Shown here: positions 27,238 to 49,034 of the stretch, piece after piece
Position numbering within the stretch: position 1 is the first letter of the stretch
How the letters are laid out: the number at the start of each line of letters is the position of its first letter
Assembly (NCBI RefSeq): GCF_002872075.1
Contig: NZ_PGGU01000002.1
Span: 62,001 to 126,000, forward strand
DNA length: 64,000 bases
Source: Microbacterium aurantiacum
GTDB taxonomy: Bacteria; Actinomycetota; Actinomycetes; Actinomycetales; Microbacteriaceae
Reading direction: 5' to 3'
Notes under the pieces: model-generated
Databases searched by the model: none
Told to the model about the DNA's origin: nothing
Seen by the model: the letters and a program-made list of their open reading frames with translations, nothing else
Position numbers and translations under genes: made by a program

Positions 27238-29155
<1,918 letters not shown>

Positions 29156-29159
<4 letters not shown>

Positions 29160-31614: not shown

Positions 31615-31637
31615 GTGTGCTTCCCTTCGAGGGCGGA

Positions 31638-32534
31638 TCAATGGGCCGCGTGGACCAGTCGGGCGGCGATGTCGACGGCGGCGGCGACATCGCCGTCTGG
31701 CGGGTAGAGGAGCGTGCGACCGACGGTGAGCCCGCGCACTCCGGGAAGAGCGAGGGCGTGCACCCAGCTGGCGTAGGTCTCGTCGAGGGTGGCTCCGTTG
31801 TCGCCTCCCAGAAGCAGAGTCGGCAACGTCGTCGCCTCCATGACGCGCTCCATCTCGTCGACGACCGGAAGCTTCATCCAGGTGTACGCGCTGCTCGCCC
31901 CGAGACCGGAAGCGATCGCGATGGAGTGGATGACCGCATCCGCGCTCAGGTCGTTGACGACCCGGCCGCCGTCACGGCGACTGAGGAACGGCTCCACCAT
32001 GATCGGCAGCCGCGCGTTGGCCGCGGCCGTGATCGCCGCCGCGGTCGCCTCCATGGTCGTCGCGGTGGCCGGGTCGCCCAGGTCGATCCGCATGAGCGTC
32101 TTGGCGAAGTCGATCCCGCTGGACATCATCGACGGCACGTCATACGCGGTGAAACGATCGTCCATCTCGAACGTCGCGCCACGCAGACCACCCCGGTTCA
32201 TCGAACCGACGACGATCTTGTCATCCAGCAGCCCCAGCAGGGCGAGGTCATCGAGGATGTCGGGGGTGCCGAGCACGCCGTCGACTCCGGGATGACGCAG
32301 CGCCACCGCGAGCCGGGCGAGAAGCTCGTTGCGGTTCGCCATCGCGAGGGCATCGCTTCCGATGCCCAGCGAGCCGCGCGCAGGATGGTCGGCGGCGATG
32401 ATGAACAGCCGGCCGTCTCCCCGCAGGAGCGGCCTGCGGCGCCGGGTCGCGAAGGCCTGAGCGATCGCCTCCGGGTGAGTCGCGCGTCCCTCGCGCAGGC
32501 GCGGCAGATCGATGGCGCCGTCGATCGTTTCCAT
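31638..32534 (-). CDS. Cgl0159-family (beta/alpha)8-barrel protein, candidate DKGP aldolase of the iol pathway
   Basis: Cytosolic 298-residue barrel related to DeoC/LacD-type aldolases and to the protein found between iolC and iolA in Corynebacterium glutamicum. Visible blocks are LFIIAADHPARGSLGIG, DDKIVVGSMNRGGLRGATFEMDDRFT, ARLPIMVEPFLS and LPTLLLGGDNG. No IolJ-like class II aldolase is in the cluster, so this protein probably cleaves 5-dehydro-2-deoxygluconate 6-phosphate (inference). Two adjacent ATGs (32537 and 32534) follow GGAGGG; the second has better spacing. It overlaps the iolC stop. Confidence 0.82.
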   Translation of the reverse strand: METIDGAIDLPRLREGRATHPEAIAQAFATRRRRPLLRGDGRLFIIAADHPARGSLGIGSDALAMANRNELLARLAVALRHPGVDGVLGTPDILDDLALLGLLDDKIVVGSMNRGGLRGATFEMDDRFTAYDVPSMMSSGIDFAKTLMRIDLGDPATATTMEATAAAITAAANARLPIMVEPFLSRRDGGRVVNDLSADAVIHSIAIASGLGASSAYTWMKLPVVDEMERVMEATTLPTLLLGGDNGATLDETYASWVHALALPGVRGLTVGRTLLYPPDGDVAAAVDIAARLVHAAH

Positions 32535-33526
32535 CATCCCTCCAGGACCTCTTCGACCTCAGCGCCGGTCGGCATGGCGGTCGAGCACTCCCGGCGCGAT
32601 GCCACGATGGCGCCGGCGGCATTCGCGTAGCGCAGCGTGGCCTCCAGATCCCATCCCCGCAGGAGGCCGTTGCACAGCGCGCCGCCGAAGGCGTCGCCCG
32701 AGCCGAGGCCGTTGACGACATCGACCAGATGCGCGGGCACCTCGACGAGTTCGTCGCGTGTGCGCGCCAGCACCCCGCGCGGACCCTGCTTGATGATCGC
32801 CAGCTGCACGCCGCGCTCCAGCAGCGCGTCGGCGGCGCGGAGCGGTTCGCTCTCCCCGACGGCCACTTCGCACTCCTCCTGGTTGCCCACGGCGACGGTG
32901 ACGTACTCCAGCGCCTTCTCGATCTGAGCGGTCGCATCCTCGCGACGCTCCCAGAACATCGGGCGGTAGTCCAGGTCCAGGACGGTGAACTCCGCACGGT
33001 CGCGAATCCGGAGAGCATCGAAGTGGGCGGCGCGACTCGGCTCCTTGCTGAATCCGGTGACGGTGAGCCAGAAGACTCCCGCGGAGCGGATGGCATCGCC
33101 GTCGAGGTCGGCCGGGCCGACGTTCAGGTCGGGGGCCAGCGGTTCGCGATAGAAGTACAGCGGGAAGTTGTCGGGCGGGAAGATCTCGCAGAAGGTCAGG
33201 GGGGTCTTCAGGCTCGAGTCGACCCCGACGAAACGAGCGTCCACGCCGAGCCGGCCCAGCTCCGCGATGAGGTAGCGACCGAACGGGTCGTCGCCGACGC
33301 GGGAGATCAGTGCAGCTGCATGGCCGTACTTGGCCGCAGCGACCGTGACGTTGGCGGCACTGCCGCCGAGGGATTTCCCGAACGTCTCCACATCCTCCAG
33401 GCCCACGCCGGACTGCAGCGGATAGAGGTCGACCCCGAGACGTCCGAAGGCCAACACGTCCATGCGCGTGTCGGATGCCTCGTGCTCGTCGCGCACGGGC
33501 ACCCGAGAGGGGATGCCGGAATTCAT
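32534..33526 (-). CDS. iolC: 5-dehydro-2-deoxygluconokinase
   Basis: PfkB/ribokinase-type kinase of 330 residues that phosphorylates 5-dehydro-2-deoxygluconate. DVLAFGRLGVDLYPLQSGVGLEDV is the specific IolC opening, then SLGGSAANVTVAAAKYG. The C-terminal NGLGSGDAFGGAL holds the catalytic Asp of the family's GAGD motif. It is the first gene of the iol operon. The ATG at 33526 has no ribosome-binding site but lies six bases after a TATTGT -10 element, so the transcript is probably leaderless. An IolR-like palindrome overlaps both. Confidence 0.95.
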   Translation of the reverse strand: MNSGIPSRVPVRDEHEASDTRMDVLAFGRLGVDLYPLQSGVGLEDVETFGKSLGGSAANVTVAAAKYGHAAALISRVGDDPFGRYLIAELGRLGVDARFVGVDSSLKTPLTFCEIFPPDNFPLYFYREPLAPDLNVGPADLDGDAIRSAGVFWLTVTGFSKEPSRAAHFDALRIRDRAEFTVLDLDYRPMFWERREDATAQIEKALEYVTVAVGNQEECEVAVGESEPLRAADALLERGVQLAIIKQGPRGVLARTRDELVEVPAHLVDVVNGLGSGDAFGGALCNGLLRGWDLEATLRYANAAGAIVASRRECSTAMPTGAEVEEVLEG

Positions 33527-33537
33527 GTTCTAACAAT
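33525..33537 (-). promoter_or_regulatory. IolR-like operator overlapping the iolC -10 element and start
   Basis: On the minus strand ATTGTTAGAACAT carries the palindrome TGTTAGAACA. It overlaps the putative -10 (TATTGT) and the ATG of iolC, an ideal place for repression. It matches the frame ATTGTynnrACAT found also at 33604 and 17277. Confidence 0.65.
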
Positions 33538-33603
33538 AGCTCATACGGTGCGGCCTGGACAGGACTTCCTCGGGACGCATGCGCAGAGGAGACGAAAAGC
33601 TAT

Positions 33604-33616
33604 ATTGTCGGGACAT
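33604..33616 (+). promoter_or_regulatory. IolR-like operator at the iolR promoter
   Basis: ATTGTCGGGACAT contains TGTCGGGACA, an inverted repeat around GG. It overlaps the 3' end of a TATATT -10-like element at 33601-33606, which suggests autoregulation of iolR. From memory, the C. glutamicum IolR motif is KGWCHTRACA; this site agrees at nine of ten positions on the reverse strand. Confidence 0.6.
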
Positions 33617-33656
33617 TCGACGGTTTCGCCGTCATGAACGCGAGCGGAGTGGACCA

Positions 33657-34418
33657 ATGAGCGCCGGAGAAACAGTGTGGCCGGAAGATCTCGCGGCCGA
33701 TATCGACCGCTCGGGACCCGTGCCTCTCTATTTCCAGGTGTCCAGTCGCCTCGAAGCGGCGATCCGCTCCGGAGAGATCCCTCCCGGTTCCCGCCTCGAG
33801 AACGAGATCGCGATCGCGGAGCGGCTCGGGCTCTCGCGGCCGACGATCCGGCGCGCAATCCAGGAGCTGGTGGACAAGGGACTGCTCGTCCGCCGCCGGG
33901 GGGTGGGTACTCAGGTGGTCCAGGGGCAGGTCACTCGCCAGGTCGAATTGACCAGCCTGTACGAAGACCTGCAGAACGCCAGGCAGGAGCCGGCGACTCG
34001 AGTCCTCGATCTCGAAGTGCGCCCAGCCACCGACGAGGTCGCCCAAGCCCTCGGCATCGCTGTCGGCGCCGACATCCTGTACCTGAGACGCCTGCGATTC
34101 ACCGGCACCACACCGGTCGCGATCCTGGAGAACACTCTTCCCGTGGACTTCGCCGACATCACGCCCGCCCAGCTCGAGGCGCGGGGCCTCTATCAGATCC
34201 TCCGAGGCCGCGGGGTGGCGATCAGCGTGGCGAAGCAGAAGATCGGCGCCCGCCGAACGCACGGCGACGAGAGCGAACTTCTGGACATCGATCGCGGCGG
34301 ACCCGTGCTCACGATGCAGCGCATCGCCTTCGACAACAGCGGACGCGCCGTCGAGGTCGGTCACCATTGCTACCGCCCCGACATGTACAGCTTCGAGACG
34401 ACCGTCGTCGCTCGGTAG
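33657..34418 (+). CDS. iolR: GntR-family regulator of inositol catabolism
   Basis: Repressor of 253 residues. The N-terminal winged helix reads VPLYFQVSSRLEAAIRSGEIPPGSRLENEIAIAERLGLSRPTIRRAIQELVDKGLLVRRRGVGTQVV, and a UTRA effector-binding domain occupies the rest (AILENTLPVDFADITPAQLEARGLY). The start at 33657 follows GGAGTGGA. An eight-codon reading frame at 33634-33660 ends in an ATGA overlap with it. It is divergent from iolC, the arrangement known for IolR in Corynebacterium. Half-sites of a shared palindrome lie at both promoters, so repression of the iol operon and itself is expected. Confidence 0.88.
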   Translation: MSAGETVWPEDLAADIDRSGPVPLYFQVSSRLEAAIRSGEIPPGSRLENEIAIAERLGLSRPTIRRAIQELVDKGLLVRRRGVGTQVVQGQVTRQVELTSLYEDLQNARQEPATRVLDLEVRPATDEVAQALGIAVGADILYLRRLRFTGTTPVAILENTLPVDFADITPAQLEARGLYQILRGRGVAISVAKQKIGARRTHGDESELLDIDRGGPVLTMQRIAFDNSGRAVEVGHHCYRPDMYSFETTVVAR

Positions 34419-34450: not shown

Positions 34451-36319
34451 TCAGATCCTTCCGCGCAGCTCCCAGGAATCGACGCCGCGGCGCGGAGCGA
34501 ACAGGATCCGCGACACTTCGTCCCCCCAGGAATCCTGGAGATAGGGGTCGCCGGTCGCGCGCGTCTCGATCACGACCTCCGCCGGGTCGTGGACCAGCAT
34601 CAGGGGGCGGGAGCCGTGCCGCCCGGGGACGAGGATGCGGTCGCCCACCCGCTCGGGCACGCCGGCGCACACGATGGCGATGCGGGTGCCCTCCGCGCCG
34701 ACGGCGGCTCCCTCGTCGCGAACGAGCACTTCGCCGTCACTGAGTCGGACCAGCCTCGTCCACTCGCGGTCCGCTCCGTCCGGCCAGGGGTACGCCCCGC
34801 TCAGGTCGATCGACCAGCCTTCATCGAGGGGCTGCAGCGGCGCCTCCCACTCCCGGCCCGGCAGCTGCTCGAGCCCGTGAGGATGCGGGAGGCTGTGCCA
34901 CTCGCTGCTCAGATGCCACAGCGAGTACCGCTGCTCGGAGAAGGTGGTCGCGGTGTACACCCCGCGGCCGAGGTCGGCGAGCAGCGGCACCCCGTCGACC
35001 GCCACGGACACCGATCCGAGGTCGTTGTGGTTGTGACTCTCGGCGTTGTGCCCCGCCTTCACGATGACGGTCAGCCCGGTGGAGTCGCCCTCGCGCTCCC
35101 GCCGGATGCCGACGGCGATCGAGGCGAACTCCGCTTGCCGCGGGTAAGGCGCTCCGCGGGGCGGAGTCGCGCGCCACCGGGCATCGAACGACTCGCCGAT
35201 CATGCGGCCGATCCCGCCGACCGTATCGGCCTGCAGCCCGAGGGTGCGGCCCGCCACCCTCCGGCCGGCCGCGAACGCCGCGGTTTCCTCGAGCCCGCAG
35301 AACTGCGCCGCACGGAACAGCGAGAACCAGGGCACGTCCGCCCCGATCCGCGCCTCCGCGTCGGAGTAGCTGGCGACCCAGTCATCGCCGAGCAGCATCC
35401 GCTCGGGGAACCGGGCGAGCTCGCGCAGCCCGGACAGCGCTCCGCCGACCGCCTCCGACCCGATCCGGCCGCCGGAGAGCGTATCGAGCAGCACGAGGCC
35501 GTCGAATGCCCGACCGGCACCCTGCCACCAGTACGCGAAGCCCTCGTCGATGCCACCGTCGGCGGGGAGATGCGACAGGTAGCGGTCGAGGCCGTCGACG
35601 CATCTCTCGAGCAGCCGCTCTTGACGCTCCCCTTCGCTGAACGCGACGGCCGCGGGGATGACGTTGCCGACGATCCATGCCAGCCAGTTGTTGATCTCGC
35701 GGTTCTCCCACCACCAGTCACGGCGCTGCATCAGCGGTGTCAGGATGCGGCGTTCGACCTCAGCGCGCAGTCGCGGCATCACTCCGGGCACTTCGACGTC
35801 GAGGGCGTCGCCCAGAATGAGAGCCGCCCACCCGGCGAGCGCCGCGCACTCCCCCGCCCCCAGATCGAGGAACGGGCGGTCGACGTCGGTGGTGAGCAGC
35901 CCCCGAGAGAATGCGTCATCGTGCGCGGGCCAGCACCAGGTCGACTGCTCGCAGAGGGTCCACAGCCCGTCGGCCGCCTCGATCACACGTGCAGGCGACG
36001 GGTCGATCGCGGCGGCGAGGACCGCCAGTCGAATACGCCGCTTGTGCGCGAAGTCGACCGACTCGTAGCCTCGGCGATCCCCGGTCCGCGCGAAGTCCGA
36101 CCACTGCGAGAGCCGGGGCACGATCCAGGTCTCACCGTGCGCGGCGTCGGCCGCCGCCAGGATGAGATCCCGCGCCTCCTGATCGATGGACTGCCAGGCG
36201 GCGCGGTCGGAAGAGCTGGGCACGAGATGCGGGATGGCATCGCCCTGCGACGACTGCCAGATGTGCAGCAGCGCTCCGCGTTCGATCAGCCCGGCATCAC
36301 CCTCATCCTGTCCGTCCAT
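34451..36319 (-). CDS. Heparinase II/III-family polysaccharide lyase, cytosolic
   Basis: Lyase of 622 residues with an N-terminal (alpha/alpha) toroid (about 40-380; NREINNWLAWIVGNV and GGIDEGFAYWWQGAGRAFD with a likely catalytic Tyr263) and a C-terminal beta-sandwich with the heparinase II/III signature KAGHNAESHNHNDLGSVSVAVDGVPLLADLGRGVYT (His429 and His431). No signal peptide is present, so it cuts oligosaccharides after import. It ends a seven-gene module with an importer and a hydroxyacid dehydrogenase. Related families act on heparan, hyaluronan, alginate or exopolysaccharide oligomers; the substrate here is unknown. Confidence 0.88.
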   Translation of the reverse strand: MDGQDEGDAGLIERGALLHIWQSSQGDAIPHLVPSSSDRAAWQSIDQEARDLILAAADAAHGETWIVPRLSQWSDFARTGDRRGYESVDFAHKRRIRLAVLAAAIDPSPARVIEAADGLWTLCEQSTWCWPAHDDAFSRGLLTTDVDRPFLDLGAGECAALAGWAALILGDALDVEVPGVMPRLRAEVERRILTPLMQRRDWWWENREINNWLAWIVGNVIPAAVAFSEGERQERLLERCVDGLDRYLSHLPADGGIDEGFAYWWQGAGRAFDGLVLLDTLSGGRIGSEAVGGALSGLRELARFPERMLLGDDWVASYSDAEARIGADVPWFSLFRAAQFCGLEETAAFAAGRRVAGRTLGLQADTVGGIGRMIGESFDARWRATPPRGAPYPRQAEFASIAVGIRREREGDSTGLTVIVKAGHNAESHNHNDLGSVSVAVDGVPLLADLGRGVYTATTFSEQRYSLWHLSSEWHSLPHPHGLEQLPGREWEAPLQPLDEGWSIDLSGAYPWPDGADREWTRLVRLSDGEVLVRDEGAAVGAEGTRIAIVCAGVPERVGDRILVPGRHGSRPLMLVHDPAEVVIETRATGDPYLQDSWGDEVSRILFAPRRGVDSWELRGRI

Positions 36320-36325
36320 GTCGAC

Positions 36326-37300
36326 CTACGCGCTGAGTTCCATGTCCCGCCGGGTGATCACCTGCGACAGGATCCCCCCGCGGAGCAGCGTCTCGATGTC
36401 ATCGAGGGCCGAGTCCGCGAGCCGGCGCGCCTCGGTGCCCATCGATCCGGCGATATGCGGGGTCAGCGCCACGTTCGGCAGTTCGCGCAGCGGCGAGTCG
36501 GCCGGCAGCGGGTCAGGCTCCGTCACGTCGAGGACGGCGTCCAGCCGCCCGGAGGCGCACTCCCGCAGCAGCGCGTCGTGATCGAGGATCCAGCCGCGCG
36601 CCGTGTTGATCACGGTGGCGCCGTCGCGCAGGGCGGCGAGCTCGGTACCGCCGATCATGTGGTGCGTCTCCGGCAGCGCCGGGGCATGCAACGACAGCAC
36701 ATCGACCTGTCCGAGCAATGACCCGAGAGAGACGAGCTCCGCCCCCGCCGCTGCGACGACCTCCGGCGCGACGAACGGGTCGGCGACGAGGATGCGAACA
36801 TCGTCGAGCTGGCCGAGCATCCGCACCACCCGGCGACCGATCCGCGAGAATCCGACGATACCCACCGTCCTGCCGACGCTGCCGTACTTCAGCGAGCCGA
36901 CCAGATCGCCCCAGCCGAGGATGGCCGAGGGGGTGCGCATGTGCAGGAAGGCGCGCTTGAACGCGAGGATGATCGTCGCGAAGGTGTACTCGGCGACCGG
37001 GACCGCGTTGGCGTCGGCCGCGGAGGTCACGATGATCTCGCGCCTCCACAGCGCGTCGGAGACGAGGCCCTGCACGCTGCCGGCGGCGTGCACGACAGCA
37101 CGCAGCCGGGGCATGCGGTCGAGCATCTCGGCGTCGAGCCGCGGCGCCCCCCAGGAGGTCAGCAGGATCTCGGTGTCCGCGAGGTCGCCGTGGTCGATCG
37201 CGAGAGGCGAAGACGAGGTCAGCGCCTGCAGCCGCTGCAGGCGAGCGGAGTCGAAGAGCAGGTCGAACACCTCGGGACTCATCGCGGTGCGCACCCTCAC
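36326..37300 (-). CDS. D-isomer-specific 2-hydroxyacid dehydrogenase
   Basis: NAD-dependent dehydrogenase of 324 residues. The cofactor domain shows VGRTVGIVGFSRIGRRVVRMLG, the substrate domain VVHAAGSVQGLVSDALW, and the catalytic set appears as INTARGWILD (Arg), VLDVTEPDPLPADSPL (Glu) and LTPHIAGSMGTEARR (His). The GTG at 37300 overlaps the DUF624 stop as GTGA and has AGAGG upstream. Longer upstream frames are shadows of the permease genes. In this locus it could reduce a 2-keto acid from the unsaturated uronate product (inference). Confidence 0.9.
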   Translation of the reverse strand: MRVRTAMSPEVFDLLFDSARLQRLQALTSSSPLAIDHGDLADTEILLTSWGAPRLDAEMLDRMPRLRAVVHAAGSVQGLVSDALWRREIIVTSAADANAVPVAEYTFATIILAFKRAFLHMRTPSAILGWGDLVGSLKYGSVGRTVGIVGFSRIGRRVVRMLGQLDDVRILVADPFVAPEVVAAAGAELVSLGSLLGQVDVLSLHAPALPETHHMIGGTELAALRDGATVINTARGWILDHDALLRECASGRLDAVLDVTEPDPLPADSPLRELPNVALTPHIAGSMGTEARRLADSALDDIETLLRGGILSQVITRRDMELSA

Positions 37301-37965
37301 GCCCGCACCTCTTCGAGGTCGAGAACCGGGCGCAGCGTGTAGCGGCTGTTCGCCCACGCGACGTACAGGGCCGGTGCGCAGGTCAGGCCGATCGCGATCG
37401 CCGGCATCGTGGTGAACAGGGCGAACTGCACGCCCAGCACCGCGAACGACAGCACGCTCAGATACCAGCGCCGCACGCTCAGGTAGAGCGCCGCCTTGAG
37501 GATGTCGCGCAGGCGTGCCTGCGGCGCCTCGGCGAGTGCGACGAGCGCGACGAGCGCGGTCGCGACGGCGATCGCGGTGAGCAGGACCAGCACCGGGACC
37601 ACGACGACGGACGCCGGCAGTGCAGCCACCGCACGCACGTCGACGAGCAGGACGACGACGGATGCCGCGGCGGCTGCCCCGATCAGCATCCCCTTGCGCC
37701 AGGTCGTCTTCCAGCCTCGGAAGAACGACCGCACCACCTGCGGCTCGCCGCGCCCGAACTCGCGGAACGCCGTGAACGCGCCCGTGAGAGCCGGAGCCGC
37801 CACGGGCGCCGCGAGAGCCAGCATCGGCCAGGACAGCATCGGGTCGGTGGTCATCAGCAGCACCACGAGGGGTGCGGCCGCGAGGAGGACGAGGAAGTTC
37901 GACATCAGGCCGAGATAGACGACGCCGAGGATGGTCGCCCAGGCGTCGTGCGAGATCCGCTTCAT
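37297..37965 (-). CDS. DUF624 (YesL-like) membrane protein
   Basis: Integral membrane protein of 222 residues with about five hydrophobic segments, beginning AWATILGVVYLGLMSNFLVLLAAAPLVVLL. The block GAFTAFREFGRGEPQVVRSFFRGWKTTWRKG is typical of DUF624. Homologues sit beside ABC importers for pectin or other plant oligosaccharides (YesL in the Bacillus rhamnogalacturonan cluster), but their job is not known. It lies three bases after the MalG-type permease stop and overlaps the dehydrogenase start. Confidence 0.85.
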   Translation of the reverse strand: MKRISHDAWATILGVVYLGLMSNFLVLLAAAPLVVLLMTTDPMLSWPMLALAAPVAAPALTGAFTAFREFGRGEPQVVRSFFRGWKTTWRKGMLIGAAAAASVVVLLVDVRAVAALPASVVVVPVLVLLTAIAVATALVALVALAEAPQARLRDILKAALYLSVRRWYLSVLSFAVLGVQFALFTTMPAIAIGLTCAPALYVAWANSRYTLRPVLDLEEVRA

Positions 37966-37968
37966 CGA

Positions 37969-38874
37969 TCAGCCCTTCATCCCGCTCGTGGCGATGCCCT
38001 CGACGAAGTACTTCTGGCCGAGCAGGAAGATGATCGCGATGGGCAGGACCGAGATCGTCAGGCCGGCGAACAGCAGCGCGTAGTTCGTGTCGAAGAGGTT
38101 CGAGACGAAGCTCTTGAGTCCGAGCTGGATCGTCCACAGGTCGGGATTGCGCAGATAGATCAGCGGCCCCAGATAGTCGTTCCACGTGTTCACGAAGGTG
38201 AGCAGCGTGAGGCTCGCGATCGCCGGGATCGACAGCGGCAGCATGATGCGGCGCCAGATGCCGTACTCGCTGAGCCCGTCCAGGCGCGCGGCCTCGCTCA
38301 GCTCCTCGGGGATCGTCTCGTAGTACTGCTTCATCAGGAACACCCCGAAGGCGCCGAACGCCTGCAGCAGGATGATCGCCCACAGCGTGTTCGACACCTT
38401 GAGGTTCGACAGCAGGATGAACTGCGGGATCATGTACGACTGCCACGGAACCGCGATCGTGCCGATGTAGGCGAGGAACAGGATGTCCCGCCCGGCGAAG
38501 CGCATGCGCGCGAAGCCGTAGGCGGCGAACGATCCCGTGAGCACCTGCAGGAACGTCACGCTGACGGCCAGGAACAGTGTGTTGCGGATCCAGACGAGCA
38601 TGTCCGACTTCGTCCAGATGTCGACGTAGTTCTGCCACACGAAGATCTCCGGCACCCAGACCACGGGCACCGAGAACACCTCGTTGGCGTTCTTCAGCGA
38701 GCTCATCACCATCCAGGCGAACGGGGCCAGCAGGCCGATCGCGGCGATGATCAGGGCGATGTAGCCGACGATGCGGCCGGCGGTGCGGCCGGCGCGCACG
38801 CGGGCTGCCGGGGCGGGGCCGCTGAGCTTGCGCAGCGTGCCTCCGGTGACGAGGACCTGGGTCTCGGTCATCAT
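37969..38874 (-). CDS. ABC sugar permease (MalG-type)
   Basis: Permease of 301 residues with about six helices, starting VGYIALIIAAIGLLAPFAWMVMSSLK. The ATPase-docking loop is ELSEAARLDGLSEYGIWRRIMLPLSIP, and the tail FVEGIATSGMKG is characteristic. The ATG at 38874 overlaps the stop of the first permease (ATGA) and has GGAG upstream. It works with the permease and lipoprotein that precede it in the same operon. Confidence 0.93.
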   Translation of the reverse strand: MMTETQVLVTGGTLRKLSGPAPAARVRAGRTAGRIVGYIALIIAAIGLLAPFAWMVMSSLKNANEVFSVPVVWVPEIFVWQNYVDIWTKSDMLVWIRNTLFLAVSVTFLQVLTGSFAAYGFARMRFAGRDILFLAYIGTIAVPWQSYMIPQFILLSNLKVSNTLWAIILLQAFGAFGVFLMKQYYETIPEELSEAARLDGLSEYGIWRRIMLPLSIPAIASLTLLTFVNTWNDYLGPLIYLRNPDLWTIQLGLKSFVSNLFDTNYALLFAGLTISVLPIAIIFLLGQKYFVEGIATSGMKG

Positions 38875-39827
38875 GCGCTCCGCTTCTTGTTCCAGAGGAA
38901 CTGGCCGACGGTGACGAGGATGCAGAGGAAGAACAGCGCCACGGCCGCGGCTGACGCGTAGCCGAACTGCGACTCCTCGAAGCCCTTCTTGTAGATGAAC
39001 TGCGACAGGACGAGCGTCGACTGGCCGGGCCCGCCGTCGGTCATCACGAGGATCAGGTCGAAGACCTTGAAGGAGTTGATCGTGAGCATCACGGTGACGA
39101 AGAACATCGTCGGCCGCAGGCACGGCAGCGTCACGTTGACGAAGCGCTGCCAGACGCTCGCGCCGTCGACGCGCGCGGCCTCGTGCAGTTCACGCGGCAC
39201 GGTCTGGAGACCGGCGAGGAACAGGATCATGTAATAGCCCATGTCGCGCCAGGTGCTGACGATGACGACGGCGGGCATCGCCCACTCCGAGGAGGTGAGC
39301 CAGCCGGGGGGCTCGGAGATCCCGATCGCGCGAAGGACCTCGTTGACGGGCCCGTAGTCGGGGCTGAAGAGCAGGTTCCAGACGACCGCGATCGCGACGA
39401 TCGAGGTGATGTAGGGGAAGAAGGCCGCGGTGCGGAAGAAGGCGACGCCGCGGAGCTTGTTGTTCAGCAGGAGAGCGAGTCCCAGCGCGACGACCATCGT
39501 CAGCGGGATGTGCATCACCGAGTAGTAGATGGTGTTCCAGAACGCGATGTGGAAGCTGCCGTCGCCCATCAGGCGCTGGAAGTTCGTCAACCCCACCCAG
39601 TCGGCCTTGCCGAAGACGTTCCAGTTCGTGAACGCCATGTAGAAGAGGATCAGCACCGGGAGCAGGGTGAGGAACCCGAATCCGATGAAGTTCGGCAGGA
39701 TGAAGCTCCAGCCGATCAGGGCGTTGCGGCGGCGCAGCGCCGAGCGGCGCTTCGGCAGCTTCGGCGGCTTCGGATTCTTCGCCGGCCGTGGGGCCGTGCC
39801 GCGGGGCGGGGCCTCGGTGGTGGTCAT
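38871..39827 (-). CDS. ABC sugar permease (MalF-type)
   Basis: Permease of 318 residues with a long Pro/Lys-rich cytosolic N-terminus and about six helices, the first near LIGWSFILPNFIGFGFLTLLPVLILFYMAFTNW. The EAA loop reads LHEAARVDGASVWQRFVNVTLPCLRP, and GGPGQSTLVLSQFIYKKGFEES is typical of oligosaccharide systems. The ATG at 39827 has GGAGACGAAAGAC upstream. It lies 86 bases after the binding protein. Confidence 0.93.
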   Translation of the reverse strand: MTTTEAPPRGTAPRPAKNPKPPKLPKRRSALRRRNALIGWSFILPNFIGFGFLTLLPVLILFYMAFTNWNVFGKADWVGLTNFQRLMGDGSFHIAFWNTIYYSVMHIPLTMVVALGLALLLNNKLRGVAFFRTAAFFPYITSIVAIAVVWNLLFSPDYGPVNEVLRAIGISEPPGWLTSSEWAMPAVVIVSTWRDMGYYMILFLAGLQTVPRELHEAARVDGASVWQRFVNVTLPCLRPTMFFVTVMLTINSFKVFDLILVMTDGGPGQSTLVLSQFIYKKGFEESQFGYASAAAVALFFLCILVTVGQFLWNKKRSA

Positions 39828-39913
39828 GTCTTTCGTCTCCTGGATGAGGCGGCGGTGGATGCGGCGCGGGGGCGCGATGTCGAGGGCCGACCGGCGGCCG
39901 GCCCCCGACAGGG

Positions 39914-41194
39914 TCAGCCGACCTCGTTCTTCACGCGGTCTTCGGCTGTCTTGATCGCGTCGTCGATCGACGCCGAGCCGGACATGACGGCAGTGTGCAG
40001 GTCGGCGAGGATGCCCTGGATCGTCGCCGTCTTGCTGGACGTCGGGTTTTCGGGGAGCACCTCGTGGGTCGACCAGGCGAACTTCGACAGGTCATCGGTC
40101 GGAGCGCCCTCGACCGAGAAGTAGCTCTCCACGACGGCGTCGTTCGTCAGAGCCGGGGTGATGCCGATCGCGGCGAGCGCCTGAGCGCCCTCCTCGGACG
40201 CGGCGAACTCGAGGAACTGCTTGGCCGCATCGGCCTTCGCAGAGTCGATGTTCGCGTTGATGCCGAAGCCGGTCGGGTCTCCGAAGGTCACCGGGGTGTT
40301 GTCGGTGCCGGCGGTCTTGTCGTCGAGCTGCGGCGCAGGGGCGATGCCCCACTCGAAGTCGTTGGCGTCGCCCGAGGCCTGCTGGGCGATCAGGGTGGCC
40401 GTGTACCAGGTGCCCATCAGCATCATCGCCGCTTTCTGGGTGCCGAACTCGCCCTGGTAGGTGAGCTGGTTGGCGGTGGAGGTGTTGAAGTCGACCTGGT
40501 CGCCGGCAGCCTGCAGCGCCAGCGTGTTGTCGTAGTAGTCCTTCAGGTTGCCGTAGTCGCCGTCGAGGACGCTGGTGCCGGTCTGCGCGTTCGCGAAGCC
40601 CTGCACGGTGGACTGCCAGCGGTGCAGGTACGCGCCCTTGACGGTGTCGGTGGTCAGCGCCTCGGCGGCGTCGGCGTAGTCGTCCCAGGTCCAGGAGCCG
40701 TCGGGGTGTTCGACCCCTGCGGCGTCGAAGAGGTCCTTGTCGTAGAAGAGCACCCAGGAGTCCTGGCGGTAGGGCACGGCGTACGCAGCACCGTCGACCT
40801 CGTAGGACTCGGCGCCGCTGATGCCATCGGGGAGCTTCACATCGGAGACGTCGAGCAGCTGGCCGCCCTCCTGGAAGGTGGTGACGTACTTGACCTCCTT
40901 CTGCGTGATGATGTCGGGGCCGGAACCGGCGGCGAGGTCGGCGGTGACGAGCGTGTTGTACTCGGCGGCGTCGTACTCCTTGAGCTCGATCGTGACGTTC
41001 GGGTGCTCCTTCGTGAACGCGTCGGCGAGCGTCTGGAACTCGGGCGTGGTGTCGATGCTCCACCCGGACAGCGTCAGGGTGATCGGGGCGTCGGGGTCGG
41101 CGCTCTCCGCGGCGTCGGGTGTGCCGGAACAACCGGCGAGGGCCAGGGTCGCGACTGCGGCGATGCTGCCGGCGGCGAGGATCTTGCGGTTCAT
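39914..41194 (-). CDS. ABC importer sugar-binding lipoprotein
   Basis: Extracellular binding protein of 426 residues with lipobox LALAGC (Cys22). The mature sequence shows ITLTLSGWSIDTTPEFQTLADAFTKEHPNVTIELKEYDAAEYNTLVTADLAAGSGPDIITQ, standard for family 1 carbohydrate binders, and a GSWTWDDYADAAEALT block. The start at 41194 has AAGGAG nine bases upstream. It feeds the two permeases that follow. The lyase and DUF2264 context points to a uronic-acid-containing oligosaccharide. Confidence 0.93.
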   Translation of the reverse strand: MNRKILAAGSIAAVATLALAGCSGTPDAAESADPDAPITLTLSGWSIDTTPEFQTLADAFTKEHPNVTIELKEYDAAEYNTLVTADLAAGSGPDIITQKEVKYVTTFQEGGQLLDVSDVKLPDGISGAESYEVDGAAYAVPYRQDSWVLFYDKDLFDAAGVEHPDGSWTWDDYADAAEALTTDTVKGAYLHRWQSTVQGFANAQTGTSVLDGDYGNLKDYYDNTLALQAAGDQVDFNTSTANQLTYQGEFGTQKAAMMLMGTWYTATLIAQQASGDANDFEWGIAPAPQLDDKTAGTDNTPVTFGDPTGFGINANIDSAKADAAKQFLEFAASEEGAQALAAIGITPALTNDAVVESYFSVEGAPTDDLSKFAWSTHEVLPENPTSSKTATIQGILADLHTAVMSGSASIDDAIKTAEDRVKNEVG

Positions 41195-41249
41195 GAGGTA
41201 CTGCTCCTTTGCAATTGCGGATGCCCAGGGACGGGACGGGGTCTCCGGC

Positions 41250-43202
41250 TCAGGCGAGCCGGTGTTCGGTGACGGTGGAGTCGGGCCAGGTGACGGCGAT
41301 GTCGCCGTCGATCCGGACGGAGGGGGCGGATGCCGGGGCGCGATCGGACAGGTGCACGGCTGTCACGATCCACTCGCCCATCGCGACCGGGTGGGTGATG
41401 ACCGGAACCGATGCCGCATCGCCGAGCGGGCTCGCATCCTGGCGGGTCTCGACCGCGGGCGTGCCGCCGGAGGTGAGCGCGACGATCGTGCTGCAGCGGC
41501 CGCGGGCGGCGGCCGTCGCACCGTCGTCCGATACGGCGTCGTCTGTGGCATCCGCCGCGATCGCCCAGCCGCCGATGCGCAGCGCGGCGGGCGCGGCATC
41601 CGCTTCCACGGTGTCGACGCGCACGAGGCGCACCTCCCACGCTCCCCGCACGATCGACCAGGTGGTGACGGTGCCGGCGATCTCCACGTCACCGACGATG
41701 CCGGAACCGTGCCGGGTCTGGGTTGCGGCCGGGGCTATCCAGTGCGCGGTCGCCGTGGATCCCGCGATCGCGACATCTCCGTCCAGACGGACGCCGAGCG
41801 TGCGCATGCCGGCGCGATGACTCGCCCGCCCGTCGGCGTGCAGGAGGGCGGCTGACTGCTCGAGCGGCTCGGCCCAGGCGTCGCCGTTCAGCAGCGGGCT
41901 CGTGACCGTGGAGTAGCCGAGGCGGGCGTACAGCGGTGAATCCCCGACGAGGTCTCCGGGGTGCGCGTGGTCGGCGCCGTGGTTGACGACGCGCACGATG
42001 CCGTCGTCGACGGTGGCGGAGATGATCCAGGCCGGAGCGACGGCGACGCGCAGCGTATCGGCGGTCTCGACGGGCAGGGGCACGGACGGCGCGGACCACA
42101 CGGGGTGATCTTCCGGCAGGGCGATGCCGAGCAGCCCCTTGGCCGCCCAGTAGGGTGACCCGGTGCCCGAGTAGTTCTGCGCGAGGCGACGCCATTCGCC
42201 GTGCCAGCCGAGGTCGAGCAACCCGTCGGCGTTCGGCGCGCCGTTGGCGGCGAAATGGCGGACGATGCCGGATGCCGCGCGGCGCAGCTGCCCGGCCGGA
42301 ACCGACGGCACCTCCGCGATCACGCCGGCCCAGTAGGGGGCGGCAGCAGCGAAGCGGTAGACGAGGCTACGCCCTTGGATGAGGGGGGAGCCGTCGGCGC
42401 CGACCATCGCGATCGCGTCCTGCAGGAAGGCGTCGAGACGCGCGATGTCGCCGGCTGTGCGGCCGTTCGCGAGCTCGGTTGCGCCCTGCATCCGCGCCCA
42501 CAGCACGGGATAGAGATGCAACGCCCAGCCGACGTAGTGATCGTAGGCGCGCTCGTCTCCGTCGGAGATCCAGCCGCCCTCGCGGAGGAAGGAGTCATGG
42601 CGGGCCAGGTCGTCGTCGATGTCGGCCTGCGACCACGGGCCTCCCACCGAGCGCAGGAAGGTCTCGACGACCACCCGGAACCACAGCCAGTTGTTGGCCG
42701 GATAGGTCTCATCGCCCACGATCGGCGAGAGGTAGTCGATCACGCGCTCGCGGGTGATCGCATCGAGGCGATCCCAGATCCACGGCCGGGTCATGTCGAG
42801 GATGAGCGCGATCGAGGCGGCTTCGACTTTGGCCTGGCCATGCTCGTCGGGGCGCACCCAGCGATCGGTGCTCTCGGGGTCGACACCCGCGACGATGCCG
42901 CGCGAATAGAAGTCGATGAGATCCTCGACTCCTTCACCGCGGGCACCGGCGATGCGGAAGCCGGCGAGCAGGAAGGTGCGCACGAAGCCCTCGAGCCCGT
43001 CGACGTCGACGCCGTAGCCGCCGGAGGCCCCGGGGAGCGTGATGCGGGCGCCGTTCTCGGAGGCCCAGGGGCGGACGGCGGCGAGCAGACCGTCGGCGTA
43101 CGCGAGCAGATCGGCGCGGGTCCATTCCGCATCGGCGCGATGCTCCTCCGTCACTTCGCTACGGTGCTCTTTCGCCGCTTCGCTGGTGCGCTCGAACGCC
43201 AC
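41250..43202 (-). CDS. DUF2264 domain-containing protein
   Basis: Cytosolic protein of 650 residues that covers the whole DUF2264 family, an (alpha/alpha)-toroid-like domain (about 25-390) with a beta-rich C-terminus. Typical blocks are ITLPGASGGYGVDVDGLEGFVRTFLLAGFR, YPANNWLWFRVVVETFLRSVGG and GRSLVYRFAAAAPYWAGVI. The toroid shape suggests a lyase or glycosidase on unsaturated uronyl or rhamnose-containing oligosaccharides, but no function is proven that I know of. The GTG at 43202 with AAAGGAG is the start. It is the first gene of the seven-gene operon and faces the hybrid regulator. Confidence 0.88.
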   Translation of the reverse strand: MAFERTSEAAKEHRSEVTEEHRADAEWTRADLLAYADGLLAAVRPWASENGARITLPGASGGYGVDVDGLEGFVRTFLLAGFRIAGARGEGVEDLIDFYSRGIVAGVDPESTDRWVRPDEHGQAKVEAASIALILDMTRPWIWDRLDAITRERVIDYLSPIVGDETYPANNWLWFRVVVETFLRSVGGPWSQADIDDDLARHDSFLREGGWISDGDERAYDHYVGWALHLYPVLWARMQGATELANGRTAGDIARLDAFLQDAIAMVGADGSPLIQGRSLVYRFAAAAPYWAGVIAEVPSVPAGQLRRAASGIVRHFAANGAPNADGLLDLGWHGEWRRLAQNYSGTGSPYWAAKGLLGIALPEDHPVWSAPSVPLPVETADTLRVAVAPAWIISATVDDGIVRVVNHGADHAHPGDLVGDSPLYARLGYSTVTSPLLNGDAWAEPLEQSAALLHADGRASHRAGMRTLGVRLDGDVAIAGSTATAHWIAPAATQTRHGSGIVGDVEIAGTVTTWSIVRGAWEVRLVRVDTVEADAAPAALRIGGWAIAADATDDAVSDDGATAAARGRCSTIVALTSGGTPAVETRQDASPLGDAASVPVITHPVAMGEWIVTAVHLSDRAPASAPSVRIDGDIAVTWPDSTVTEHRLA

Positions 43203-43266
43203 GGACTTCTCCTTTGAATGCTGCTCCGGGATGCCGCGACCAGAGCCTTCGGTCGCGATCGTTTGG

Positions 43267-43295
43267 AGATTATCATTCTGTTTCGATCAAGACAA
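43267..43295 (-). promoter_or_regulatory. Promoter of the DUF2264/importer/lyase operon
   Basis: On the minus strand TTGTCT (43295-43290) and TAATCT (43272-43267) are separated by exactly 17 bases. The expected start of transcription is about 58 bases before the GTG at 43202. One copy of the TTCGATCA repeat lies within the spacer, so a bound regulator would block RNA polymerase. Confidence 0.55.
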
Positions 43296-43330
43296 CCCGT
43301 GAATAATCCACATTCGATCATTTTCGATCA
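43282..43330. promoter_or_regulatory. Three phased direct repeats TTCGATCA, candidate operators of the hybrid regulator
   Basis: TTCGATCA occurs at 43282-43289, 43313-43320 and 43323-43330. The start-to-start distances are 31 and 10 bases, close to three and one helical turns, so all face the same side of DNA. The repeats fill the gap between DUF2264 and the DeoR-like regulator. Direct repeats of this kind suit DeoR-type proteins. Confidence 0.75.
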
Positions 43331-43344
43331 GCTATGCTGAGTCC

Positions 43345-44433
43345 ATGACCGATCAGCAGCACGCCCCCTTGGCGCCGGCGCGCCATGCGCACATCCTCGC
43401 CGCCCTGGTGCGCGACGGGATCGTGCGGGTCTCGCAGCTCACCGAGGAACTCGGCGTCGCCCCGGTCACCCTCCGCCGGGATCTCCAGCAACTCGAGGAG
43501 GAAGGCCACCTCGAGCGGGTCCACGGCGGTGCCGTTCCCGTGGCCGCTGCGGCGCCCGTCGATGCCGCGCAGCCCGCCACCGGCGGAGCGATCGCTGTTC
43601 TGGTCCCCTCGCTCGCGTACTACTGGCCAGGCGTGTTCCGCGGAATGGAGGCCGAGGCGCAGCGTCGCGGTCTGCGCCTGGTGCTCCGCGGCGCGTCGTA
43701 CGAGCTCCAGGACGAGCGACCCGTCCTGGAGCGCCTCGTGGCGTCGGATGACATCCGGGGCTTGATCGTGGCTCCGAACCCCGACGCCGCCCACGCGCAG
43801 GATGTGGTGCAGTGGCTCGCGTCGTCTGACATCCCGAGCGTGTTCGTCGAGCGCGATGCGGTCGTGCTCCCGGGGCGAGAGCCCGTCGAGAGCGTCACGA
43901 CCGACCATGCCTTCGGCGCCGTGCTCGCCGCCAGGCACCTCGCTGAACTCGGACACCGGCGGCTCGGTCTCATCGTGTCGCGCGACTCCCCCACCGGCCG
44001 CAAGGTCGTCAGGGGATGGGCCGCCGCGTGCGAGGAGCTCGAGCTGGGCCCAGACGCCCACTTCGAGAGCCTGATCCCTGATCGCAACGTCCCCGGCTTC
44101 ACCTCGGCCGTGAACACCGCCATCGACACCGCGCTCGAGAAGGGCGTGACCGGACTGCTCGTCCACCCGGACCCCGCGGCGATGGCGTTCATCGACATCG
44201 CCCTCAACCGGGGGCTCGCCGTGCCGGAGGACCTGTCCGTCATCGCCTACGACGACGAGGTCGCCCAGCTGTTCACCCCGGCGCTCACCGCGATCAGCCC
44301 TCCGCGCGGTGCGGTCGGCGCTGCAGCGGTCGATCTGCTCGCCCGGCGCCTCGCCGACCCCTCGCGTCCCGTGCACCGGGTGACCCTGAGTCCGACTCTG
44401 CACGCGCGCGAATCCACGGCGCCCGCGCGCTGA
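43345..44433 (+). CDS. Hybrid regulator: DeoR-type helix-turn-helix with LacI-type sugar-binding domain
   Basis: Transcription factor of 362 residues. The N-terminus (about 12-65) is a DeoR winged helix: RHAHILAALVRDGIVRVSQLTEELGVAPVTLRRDLQQLEEEGHLERVHGGAVPV. The rest is a periplasmic-binding-protein-like core as in LacI (IAVLVPSLAYYWPGVFRGMEAEAQ, HLAELGHRRLGLIVSRDSP, VPEDLSVIAYDDE), not the phospho-sugar sensor domain normal for DeoR. There is no ribosome-binding site. A TATGCT -10-like element ends six bases before the ATG, so the mRNA is likely leaderless. It is divergent from the DUF2264 operon and probably controls it through the TTCGATCA repeats. Confidence 0.88.
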   Translation: MTDQQHAPLAPARHAHILAALVRDGIVRVSQLTEELGVAPVTLRRDLQQLEEEGHLERVHGGAVPVAAAAPVDAAQPATGGAIAVLVPSLAYYWPGVFRGMEAEAQRRGLRLVLRGASYELQDERPVLERLVASDDIRGLIVAPNPDAAHAQDVVQWLASSDIPSVFVERDAVVLPGREPVESVTTDHAFGAVLAARHLAELGHRRLGLIVSRDSPTGRKVVRGWAAACEELELGPDAHFESLIPDRNVPGFTSAVNTAIDTALEKGVTGLLVHPDPAAMAFIDIALNRGLAVPEDLSVIAYDDEVAQLFTPALTAISPPRGAVGAAAVDLLARRLADPSRPVHRVTLSPTLHARESTAPAR

Positions 44434-45543: not shown

Positions 45544-45592
45544 ATGTTGACGTTATCACCGTCGCCGACGTACCATGTTGACGTGAACATGG
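45544..45592. promoter_or_regulatory. galT promoter with two LacI-type operators
   Basis: CCATGTTGACGTGAACATGG (45573-45592) is an inverted repeat with seven-base arms. ATGTTGACGTTATCA (45544-45558) is a partial copy, and ATGTTGACGT recurs exactly 31 bases apart, three helical turns. TTGACG (45547-45552) and TACCAT (45571-45576) form a -35/-10 pair with an 18-base spacer. Both operators therefore overlap core promoter elements. Confidence 0.75.
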
Positions 45593-46763
45593 AAATCTCT
45601 CCGGAGTTGTGGACAGAGCAGCTCGGTGCCGGCGTCACCAAGCGTGCCACCCGGCTCGCCGACGGCCGCGATCTGATCTACTACGACGACCCCGGCACGA
45701 CGCTCGGCGCCGACCGCGCGGTCGACACGCGCTCGCTCGATCCGCGCGGCGACACCGCCACGATGCGTCTCGATGTGCTCACCGGCGACTGGATCACGGT
45801 GGCTGCGAACCGGCAGAACCGGGTGATGATGCCGAGCGCCGACGCCGACCCGCTGGCCCCGCAGACGCCGACCAATCCGTCCGAGGTGCCGTCGCGCTAC
45901 GACGTCGCCGTGTTCGAGAACCGCTCCCCCGCCTTCGGTCCCGCACTGGCGGAGGCGCTCGGCGAGGCCCCGGCCGCGAAGGATGCGCCGCGCGGCCTCG
46001 ACGACCTCGGTGCGCTCGGGCTGGGCCGCACCCGGACCTCGGTCGGACGCTGCGAAGTGGTCTGCTTCAGCCCCGAGCACACCGGGTCGTTCGGCACCCA
46101 GTCCGTCACCCGCGCCCGCACCGTGATCGAGGCGTGGGCCGATCGCACGGCCGCGCTGTCGCAGCTGCCCGGCGTAGAGCAGGTCTTCCCGTTCGAGAAC
46201 CGTGGCGAGGCGATCGGCGTCACCCTGCCGCATCCGCACGGCCAGATCTACGCCTACCCGTATGTGACCCCGCGCACGACCCGTCTGCTCGACAGCATCG
46301 ACCGCACCGCCCCGGGCCTCTTCCAGCACCTCCTCGAGTTCGAACAGGCCTCCGAGCGGGTCGTGTTCCGCGGTGAGCACTGGACCGCGTTCGTGCCCTT
46401 CGCCGCACGCTGGCCTCTCGAGGTGCATCTGATGCCGCACCGGCACGTGCCGGACTTCGCCGAGACGACGGACGCCGAGCGCGACGAACTCGCCCCCCTG
46501 TACCTGCGCCTGCTGCGCGGCGTGGACGCCCTCTACGGCTCGCCTACCCCGTACATCGCCGCGTGGCATCAGGCCCCTGTGCACGTCGGGCGCGAGACCG
46601 TGCGGCTGCACCTGCAGCTGACCAGCCCCCGCCGGGCCGCCGACAAGCTGAAGTTCCTCGCCGGATCGGAGGCGGCGATGTGGGCGTGGACCGCTGAGAT
46701 CCCGCCCGAGCAGTCCGCGGCGCGTCTTCGCGAGGCCATCGCGAGCATCGACGAGGTGACCGC

Positions 46764-46767
<4 letters not shown>
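45589..46767 (+). CDS. galT: Galactose-1-phosphate uridylyltransferase
   Basis: Leloir pathway enzyme of 392 residues exchanging UMP between UDP-glucose and galactose 1-phosphate. The HIT-fold catalytic motif GVTLPHPHGQIYAYPY is present, with the nucleophilic histidine as the second His (about 217). Other family blocks are DVLTGDWITVAANRQNR and EVHLMPHRHVPDFAE. There is no ribosome-binding site. The -10 element ends six bases before a GTG at 45583, in frame with this ATG, so a leaderless start at the GTG is a strong alternative. The stop overlaps galK as ATGA. Confidence 0.95.
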
Positions 46768-47981
<1,214 letters not shown>

Positions 47982-48053
47982 GCCTCAGGAAGAAGATCCC
48001 AGGAGCACAACTGGGAGAATGAGCATCGCGCGCCCGCGCAAGGAGAGGAACAC

Positions 48054-49034
48054 ATGTCCTGGATCGTCACCGGCGGCGCCGGCTACATCGGAGCGCACGT
48101 CGTGCGCGCACTCGCGGATGCCGGACTCACCCCCGTGGTCCTCGACGACCTGTCCAGTGGCGTCGCCTCGTTCATCCCGGAGGGCGTGCCTTTCGTGCAG
48201 GGCAGCATCCTCGACGGCGAGATCGTCGAGAAGACGCTCCGCGACCACGCGGCCGAGGGCGTCATCCACGTCGCGGGTTTCAAGTACGCCGGCGTCTCCG
48301 TGCAGCGCCCGCTGCACACGTACGCGCAGAACGTCGAGGGCACCCGGGTGATCCTCGAGGCGATGGAGGCGGCGGGCGTGGCGAACATCGTCTTCTCGTC
48401 GTCCGCGGCCGTCTTCGGGACCCCCGACGTCTCCCTCGTCGTCGAGGAGACGGAGAAGAAGCCAGCGAGCCCCTACGGGGAGTCCAAGCTCATCGGCGAG
48501 TGGCTGCTGCGCGATCAGGCGATCGCGACCGCCGGCTCCGACCGTCCGCTGCGCCACACCTCCCTGCGCTACTTCAACGTGGTCGGGTCCGCCGATCCGG
48601 CCGTCTACGACGTGAGCCCGCACAACCTCTTCCCGATCGTGTTCGAGGCGCTCTTGGCCGGGAAGACACCGCGGATCAACGGCGACGACTACGCCACCGA
48701 AGACGGCACGAACGTGCGCGACTACGTGCACGTCGGCGACATCGCTGCGGCGCATGTCGCGGCGGCCCAGCGGCTCGCCGCGGGCGAACCGATCGAGGCC
48801 GCGTACAACCTCGGGTCGGGTGACGGGCTGAGCGTGAAGCAGATCATGGATGCAGTGGCCCGCGTCACCGGCATCGACTTCACACCCGAGGTCGGCCCCC
48901 GCCGCGCCGGCGACCCCGACCGCATCGTGGCCACCGGCGAGCTCGCCGCGCGCGACCTGGACTGGACCATGCGCTACTCGGTCGACGAGATGGTGCGCAC
49001 CGGCTGGGAGGCCCGGCGCCACGCCGACCTGTGA
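48054..49034 (+). CDS. galE: UDP-glucose 4-epimerase
   Basis: Short-chain dehydrogenase-type epimerase of 326 residues, completing the Leloir pathway. NAD binding is shown by VTGGAGYIGAHVVRALADAGL. The catalytic Ser/Tyr-x3-Lys set is FSSSAAVFG and SPYGESKLIGEWLL. The C-terminal substrate region includes LRYFNVVGSADPAV and RDYVHVGDIAAAHVAA. GGAGAGGAACAC precedes the ATG. A 72-base gap follows galK without an obvious terminator, so it is probably part of the same transcript. Confidence 0.95.
   Translation: MSWIVTGGAGYIGAHVVRALADAGLTPVVLDDLSSGVASFIPEGVPFVQGSILDGEIVEKTLRDHAAEGVIHVAGFKYAGVSVQRPLHTYAQNVEGTRVILEAMEAAGVANIVFSSSAAVFGTPDVSLVVEETEKKPASPYGESKLIGEWLLRDQAIATAGSDRPLRHTSLRYFNVVGSADPAVYDVSPHNLFPIVFEALLAGKTPRINGDDYATEDGTNVRDYVHVGDIAAAHVAAAQRLAAGEPIEAAYNLGSGDGLSVKQIMDAVARVTGIDFTPEVGPRRAGDPDRIVATGELAARDLDWTMRYSVDEMVRTGWEARRHADL

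Follow-up and report, generated by a model that had tools for sequence, protein, structure and literature searches.

A putative uronide-utilisation operon of Microbacterium aurantiacum in which a hydroxyacid-dehydrogenase-family protein may stand in for the unsaturated uronyl hydrolase

The window analysed here, a stretch of 64,000 nt from the genome of Microbacterium aurantiacum (3.83 Mb in 35 contigs), contains at positions 34451–44433 a predicted uronide-utilisation operon and its divergent regulator. The operon encodes components of an ATP-binding cassette (ABC) importer, a lyase, a DUF2264 protein and a D-2-hydroxyacid-dehydrogenase-family protein (HADH); judging from comparisons among loci and genomes, the latter probably does the job of an unsaturated uronyl hydrolase of the GH88/GH105 type. 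The locus comprises the following features:

41250..43202, minus strand: DUF2264 / 'GH154' uronate dehydratase homologue (GDH), 650 aa (PF10022, 350 bits, 1.6e-104)
39914..41194, minus strand: sugar-binding lipoprotein of the ABC importer (PF01547; start MNRKILAAGSIAAVATLALAGC; closest solved relative 4rk2, E 2.5e-57)
38871..39827, minus strand: ABC permease, MsmF/UgpA type (PF00528; UgpA-like, under the model cut-off)
37969..38871, minus strand: ABC permease, MsmG/UgpE type (PF00528; GlcU/UgpE-like, under the model cut-offs)
37297..37965, minus strand: importer-associated DUF624 membrane protein (PF04854, 35.5 bits against a cut-off of 24.2; MusI-family model under its cut-off)
36326..37300, minus strand: HADH (PF02826/PF00389; all NCBIfam scores far under the cut-offs)
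34451..36319, minus strand: PL33 (subfamily 1-like) lyase, 622 aa (PDB 8r73, E 2.3e-63)
43345..44433, plus strand: regulator, DeoR-type helix-turn-helix fused to a LacI-type sugar-binding domain (PF08220 and PF13377)
43203..43344, no strand: divergent intergenic region, candidate operator (three TTCGATCA copies and a 17-nt imperfect inverted repeat)

The seven minus-strand genes, spanning 43202 to 34451, are very likely a single operon, because the intergenic gaps along it are only 55, 86, -1, 3, -4 and 6 bases; the divergent regulator gene, on the plus strand, starts 142 bases from it. The initial annotation had named these genes and this arrangement correctly, but calling the system self-contained was too strong, since the operon lacks an ABC ATPase, a 2-keto-3-deoxygluconate (KDG) kinase and an aldolase. 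The gene set is not a chance assembly, because a survey of other genomes found it again in further actinobacterial genera, e.g. Arthrobacter, Cellulomonas and Paraoerskovia. Inspection by eye revealed a lipoprotein-like signal at the N-terminus of the binding protein and no hydrophobic signal at the start of either depolymerase, which agrees with the earlier proposal that a uronic-acid oligosaccharide is imported and then cleaved in the cytosol.

Copies of TTCGATCA are found at 43282, 43313 and 43323 (span 43282–43330) in the region between the regulator and DUF2264 genes and, together with the inverted repeat, form a candidate operator. The whole window holds six copies of this motif against 1.68 expected, and 0 of 100 shuffles reached six. 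The promoter scan returned one promoter-like site (0.6 expected) and the terminator scan three sites (2.1 expected); the Rfam and tRNA scans gave no match.

The lyase matched no model of Pfam or NCBIfam, and its family was assigned from PDB sequences: residues 34–607 align with the crystal structures 8r73, 8r75, 8r6z and 8r70 (E 2e-63 to 3e-58), which are PL33 structures from a family already characterised (PMC11848413). Residues N211, Y263 and H429 correspond to the catalytic N238, Y291 and H444 of BtPL33, R82 and H133 to its +1 subsite residues R103 and H154, and W212 to W239; the catalytic and subsite residues are each constant in 127 or 128 of the 128 aligned loci. Residue W215, equivalent to BtPL33 W242, occurs in 128/128 loci, with no known PL33_2 sequence among the rows; this tryptophan is invariant in PL33 subfamily 1 and is Val in PL33_2 (PMC11848413). 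By homology, the product first annotated as a heparinase II/III lyase is a PL33 lyase with mapped catalytic residues; on this point the initial annotation was not quite accurate, PL33 being a characterised family. An actinobacterial PL33 from Curtobacterium was inactive on the published panel of uronate polysaccharides (PMC11848413). The lyase of the window, G165 and L037 (loci L017, L037 and 34451–36319 of the window) belongs to a PL33 clade that differs from that of the close sister operons L031–L033: the DUF2264 protein, importer and HADH of the latter are 81–94% identical to those of the window, but the lyase only 39–41%. The lyase gene itself thus seems to have been exchanged.

The DUF2264 protein, which has a C-terminal region beyond the Pfam domain, is similar to the glucuronate dehydratase BcGDH (PDB 9o4u, E 7.5e-23; 9nwf, E 5.3e-22) and also to 8oi4. 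Its residues Y223, R278 and Y282 match BcGDH Y229, R285 and Y289 and are identical in 142/142 aligned loci, and N171, W172 and F175 match BcGDH N177, W178 and F181 (141, 139 and 138 of the 142 loci, respectively). At the position of BcGDH N176 the window has Asn (N170), but only 66/142 loci do; E74 and R78 lie beyond the local alignment. BcGDH generates a 4,5-unsaturated glucuronic acid (GlcA) end for GH88, and a re-description from 2025 puts forward dehydratase activity for all members of GH154 (PMC12269599). DUF2264 is the CAZy family 'GH154', re-described as (beta-)glucuronate dehydratase. Two other views of the family were rejected: that its function is unknown, because the dehydratase work appears in the GH154 literature, no paper having been found under the name DUF2264, and that it is a beta-glucuronidase, because BcGDH showed no hydrolase activity (PMC12269599). 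The initial interpretation is therefore partly supported: import and cytosolic cleavage of a uronic-acid oligosaccharide agree with the analysis, but DUF2264 can now be given a function. DUF2264 may also serve other pathways; the Microbacterium loci L141, L154 and L157 have DUF2264 with neither GH88 nor HADH, near genes that by eye are Gfo/Idh oxidoreductase-, kinase- or TIM-barrel-isomerase-like.

D-2-hydroxyacid dehydrogenases have a catalytic set of Arg, Glu/Asp and His and the nucleotide motif GxGxxG. The AlphaFold2 model of the window HADH (predicted local distance difference test, pLDDT, 88.1) has the D-2-HADH fold, and the 50 matches listed in a fold search with it were all of the D-2-hydroxyacid dehydrogenase kind, at 20–29% identity. 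All three catalytic residues are present in the window protein; in an alignment of 98 rows, which includes copies and three ordinary members, R235 and H282 occur in 97 rows, and the acidic residue after DVT in most rows but not in all. The nucleotide motif deviates from the canonical one, the second Gly being Ser (GxSxxG) in the window and in 95/98 rows, and Gly in three. A further difference from canonical members is the subfamily motif H-x-A-G-[ST], which is kept in the window and has its His in 93/98 rows.

HADH and GH88 exclude each other at the level of the locus and have been switched repeatedly, once as a clean cassette swap. Loci were gathered around PL33 and DUF2264 and scored with profiles. 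The sample is non-random: 80 loci are best matches to the window lyase, some loci were chosen after the GH88 list of the genus had been seen, and a portion of the DUF2264 and PL33 matches entered; the GH88 profile derives from sequences of this clade and may miss distant GH88/GH105. Copies (L018, L019, L023, L025, L026, L029), short loci (L001–L016) and four HADH matches below 300 bits (among them L143 and L159) were left out, and L066 and L185, a pair with identical DUF2264, are both within the 92 loci that follow. Among these, which contain PL33 and DUF2264, 64 had HADH only, 26 GH88 only, none had both and two had neither: L068, whose genome has GH88 elsewhere, and L194, from a genome without PF07470, the Pfam profile for GH88/GH105. 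The 50 DUF2264 loci without PL33 included 25 with HADH only, one with GH88 only and 24 with neither (eight of which were viewed by gene calls), and the 36 PL33 loci with no DUF2264 in view included three with HADH, none with GH88 and 33 with neither. GH88 adjoins DUF624 in 21 of its 26 loci. Of the 59 HADH loci that also match DUF624, 20 have the two genes side by side, and in 39 HADH sits at another place within the cluster. Hence, that both genes occupy the same slot is true of the Microbacterium operons resembling that of the window, and that they belong to the same cluster but never co-occur is true of all loci.

Loci with HADH were found in Microbacterium, Arthrobacter, Pseudarthrobacter, Paenarthrobacter, Cellulomonas, Paraoerskovia and Gryllotalpicola, and those with GH88 in Microbacterium, a second genus of that family and two Rhizobiaceae. 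On a DUF2264 tree (90 rows; FastTree and maximum likelihood) there were at least six changes between the HADH and GH88 states, five of them forced by starred branches, compared with a mean of about 22.8 after shuffling.

The GH88-type operons run on as GH88-FAH-KduD-KduI-KdgK-Eda, an order that was followed to Eda in L183, the others leaving the fetched stretch; in a related operon of this type KduD (347 bits) and KduI (401 bits) are both over the NCBIfam cut-offs, and FAH was named by eye. L192 has instead a single HADH gene between DUF624 and KdgK-Eda. It is collinear in DNA with its sister L196 (85–93% identity), and a segment of 1.16 kb with HADH in L192 replaces the 3.9 kb GH88-FAH-KduD-KduI cassette of L196. 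No other new gene was seen in the aligned part of the two operons, and neither PF07470 nor KduI was found in the L192 genome. This pair is the strongest single evidence for one gene doing what otherwise takes four.

Protein identity between L192 and L196 is 99% (permeases), 96% (binding protein), 94% (regulator), 90% (DUF624), 85% (DUF2264) and 75% (lyase). With importer and regulator at 94–99% identity, the imported substrate is therefore probably the same, which argues against HADH-type operons using another substrate, a free or reducing-end uronate that DUF2264 dehydrates and whose product HADH reduces, with no need for a hydrolase. The greater divergence of the lyase and DUF2264 protein than of the importer, and the existence of DUF2264-HADH pairs with no lyase in view, would agree with this explanation, which we nevertheless regard as quite improbable.

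We propose that in this operon HADH probably fills the role of the unsaturated uronyl hydrolase. The ABC importer would bring in an acidic oligosaccharide; in the cytosol, the PL33 lyase would cleave 1,4-linked uronates through beta-elimination, and saturated terminal uronates would be dehydrated by the DUF2264 enzyme. The two enzymes are expected to leave an identical group, a 4,5-unsaturated uronyl end, because both have tested relatives and have kept the catalytic residues. The sister operons would remove this end with GH88 and convert it to KDG with KduI and KduD. In the window operon HADH would take over at this point. We infer that the unsaturated uronide is its direct substrate, with NAD(P)H as the reductant and KDG as a product: unsaturated uronide + NAD(P)H + H2O would yield KDG, or something equivalent to it, together with the free sugar or aglycone. 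The route probably ends at KDG, as indicated by one operon, L192, and by the redox sum, GlcA - H2O + 2H = KDG, which fits one dehydratase plus one reductase. We propose more tentatively, and with some doubt, that HADH would break the glycosidic bond alone, as an NAD-dependent unsaturated-uronide-cleaving enzyme on a D-2-hydroxyacid dehydrogenase fold. It might do so by hydration at the enol-ether carbon and reduction of the released keto-aldehyde, or by a GH4-like transient oxidation of the allylic C3-OH; GH4-type enzymes are NAD-dependent glycosidases that use transient oxidation.

The genome that holds the window had no match to PF07470, a profile that matched 3/14 control genomes, and the GH88 protein of a Microbacterium sister operon found nothing in it at E up to 1, in a run made without a positive control. 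Its sole match to PF04962 (KduI/IolB family) is IolB; KduD was outside this genome-wide search. The initial annotation had been right that the dehydrogenase is foreign to the classical KDG route, but had overlooked that no GH88/GH105 is found in the genome and that HADH stands where sister operons have GH88. In a sample of 247 genomes of the genus, PL33 was present in 78, PF07470 in 46 and DUF2264 in 86. PF07470 was absent in 23/25 of its HADH-type genomes (present in G014 and G157), and present in 23/23 of the GH88-type genomes in the searched sample, which held 23 of the 24. Among 44 genomes reached via best matches to the window lyase, a set that may overlap with the former, it was absent in 37 of the 39 of HADH type, weak in the other two, and present in three of the five not of this type. 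KduI was found in 16/16 GH88-type genomes, each time within about 3 kb of GH88, and in 2/16 of HADH type.

The lack of KduI in 14 of these 16 genomes would also suit a scheme in which the sole task of HADH is the C1 reduction of 5-keto-4-deoxyuronate (DKI/DHU) to KDG, in place of KduI and KduD, and an unrecognised protein encoded elsewhere hydrolyses the glycoside. The redox sum fits this too, and aldehyde reductases giving KDG directly occur in alginate pathways. However, GH88 was lost in the same L192/L196 swap, no further new gene is seen in the aligned part of the pair, and nearly every HADH-type genome searched lacks PF07470; we consider this scheme unlikely.

HADH also occurs in other contexts: with DUF2264 alone, as overlapping genes, in Streptomyces, Sinorhizobium, Martelella and Chelatococcus; with PL33 and no DUF2264 in view in the three loci mentioned; next to PL8 in Arthrobacter; near other heparinase-type lyases in further loci; and with GH35, ROK, nagB and nagA on another Arthrobacter plasmid. 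The DUF2264-, PL33- and PL8-associated loci would have the unsaturated end in common. A Microbacterium cluster with the order GH9-HADH-SBP-ABC-ABC-GH3-GH38-PL8 (SBP, solute-binding protein) contains the same HADH family; L216 has the gene set and order of the published xanthan clusters (Pfam; PL8), as well as a DeoR/LacI-type hybrid regulator like that of the window, and L214 and L225 are alike by eye. Their HADHs are 47–49% identical to that of the window, and the GH88 profile had no match in loci L200–L227. A 2025 study of a Paenarthrobacter growing on xanthan describes a 'hydroxyacid dehydrogenase' but no GH88 in its cluster and in that of Microbacterium XT11; its authors leave the GH88-type step unassigned, expecting a novel or secondary activity (PMC12772297). 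In the open-licence literature we found no proposal of a role for HADH in the removal of unsaturated uronides. Twenty further paralogue loci split into 11 with the closer HADH type (six with GH38 and GH3, two with DUF2264, one with a secreted protein resembling the one in L202, two with no partner identified) and nine with a distant branch (L228, L229 and L241–L247), the first two of which are in the window's own genome.

Several observations weigh against HADH as the replacement of GH88. We know of no D-2-hydroxyacid dehydrogenase that cleaves glycosides. The distant branch (scores 320–371) stands with importers and no lyase was seen near it, the neighbours identified in five scanned loci being GH36-like, GH43 or GH29, which limits the generality of the proposed role. 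Three HADHs from lyase or GAG-like (glycosaminoglycan-like) loci, L201, L202 and L205, have Tyr in place of the motif His, and the contexts are not cleanly separated in the HADH tree, where L033, holder of two HADHs, is represented by one. The 33 PL33 loci with neither enzyme by profiles are mostly outside Actinomycetota; PF07470 was looked up in four of their genomes. HADH-type loci cover more genera than GH88-type ones and many loci are close relatives, and an independent-pairs sign test was underpowered (p 0.06–0.25), although never in the opposite direction. KdgK-Eda behind HADH is known from one case, L192, and two HADH-type genomes, G194 and G200, lack an aldolase that passes the PF01081 cut-off. 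Finally, HADH relatives (E up to 1e-30) occur elsewhere in 14 of 24 GH88-type genomes, with an identity of at least 48% in 11 of these; the exclusion is therefore a property of the locus and not of the genome.

A review, moreover, assigns the release of unsaturated uronate in Microbacterium XT11 to a GH3 enzyme (PMC10881899). This would make HADH an accessory 2-ketoacid reductase beside glycosidases of relaxed specificity, such as the GH3 of the xanthan clusters, in keeping with its fold, its near-canonical catalytic residues and the position of distant HADHs near other glycosidases. We hold this to be very improbable, since the window operon has no GH3 or other glycosidase, the authors of the Paenarthrobacter ilicis study call the activity unassigned (PMC12772297), and the mutual exclusion of HADH and GH88 would be left unexplained.

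The window operon resembles several known systems in part. Bacteroides caccae PUL25 (PL35, GH88, GH109, BcGDH; PMC12269599) likewise combines a lyase with a GH154-type dehydratase, both making unsaturated uronyl ends, but uses GH88, whereas the window has PL33, an ABC importer and HADH and no GH88. Locus L117 of Rhizobium johnstonii pRL12 (heparinase II/III, permeases, GH88, UgpC, DUF624, binding protein, DUF2264) shares with it the importer, DUF624, heparinase-type lyase and DUF2264, and differs by having GH88 in place of HADH and its own ABC ATPase; the binding proteins of related Rhizobium plasmids match that of the window. The xanthan clusters of Microbacterium XT11 and Paenarthrobacter ilicis 6C (PMC12772297, PMC10881899) also have the 'hydroxyacid dehydrogenase', no GH88 and an unsaturated GlcA end, but contain extracellular PL8 and GH9 plus GH38 and GH3, with no DUF2264 or PL33 listed; the Microbacterium loci L214, L216 and L225, with the same gene set, stood in for the XT11 and 6C sequences in this comparison. 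The classical GH88-KduI-KduD-KdgK-KdgA route (PMC12838403) shares the proposed end point, KDG, but its GH88 and KduI were not found in the window's genome, and HADH does not belong to the short-chain dehydrogenase/reductase family, as KduD/DhuD do.

The operon is flanked at 27237–34418 by an inositol catabolism cluster (IolD, IolB, MMSDH-type, IolC) with a GntR-like regulator, identified by eye, and at 45544–49034 by galT-, galK- and galE-like genes. Members of all three gal protein clusters are also near the locus in L021, and of two in L020, L031, L032 and L040; they possibly hint at galactose in the substrate, or merely reflect a shared chromosomal site. An arabinogalactan-type GlcA-Gal substrate, guessed from these genes and from the GH35 genes in Arthrobacter loci, was set aside as weak; the Leloir genes are oriented opposite to the operon, behind a LacI-type gene.

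The action of lyases and uronate dehydratases always gives rise to unsaturated uronyl ends, for whose clearance GH88/GH105 enzymes are the accepted route; a set of mostly soil-type actinobacteria seems to manage without them. The swap supplies a candidate for the step left unnamed in the 2025 xanthan study, as well as a sister pair in which HADH takes the place of four genes. If the proposed role is true, many polysaccharide loci would have their 'hydroxyacid dehydrogenase' annotation corrected. If, in addition, HADH cleaves the glycoside, it would be a new kind of enzyme, one that carries out the GH88/GH105 reaction in a second way without being related to those families, and that Actinomycetota and Alphaproteobacteria would apply to substrates of the xanthan, GAG-like and glucuronide types.

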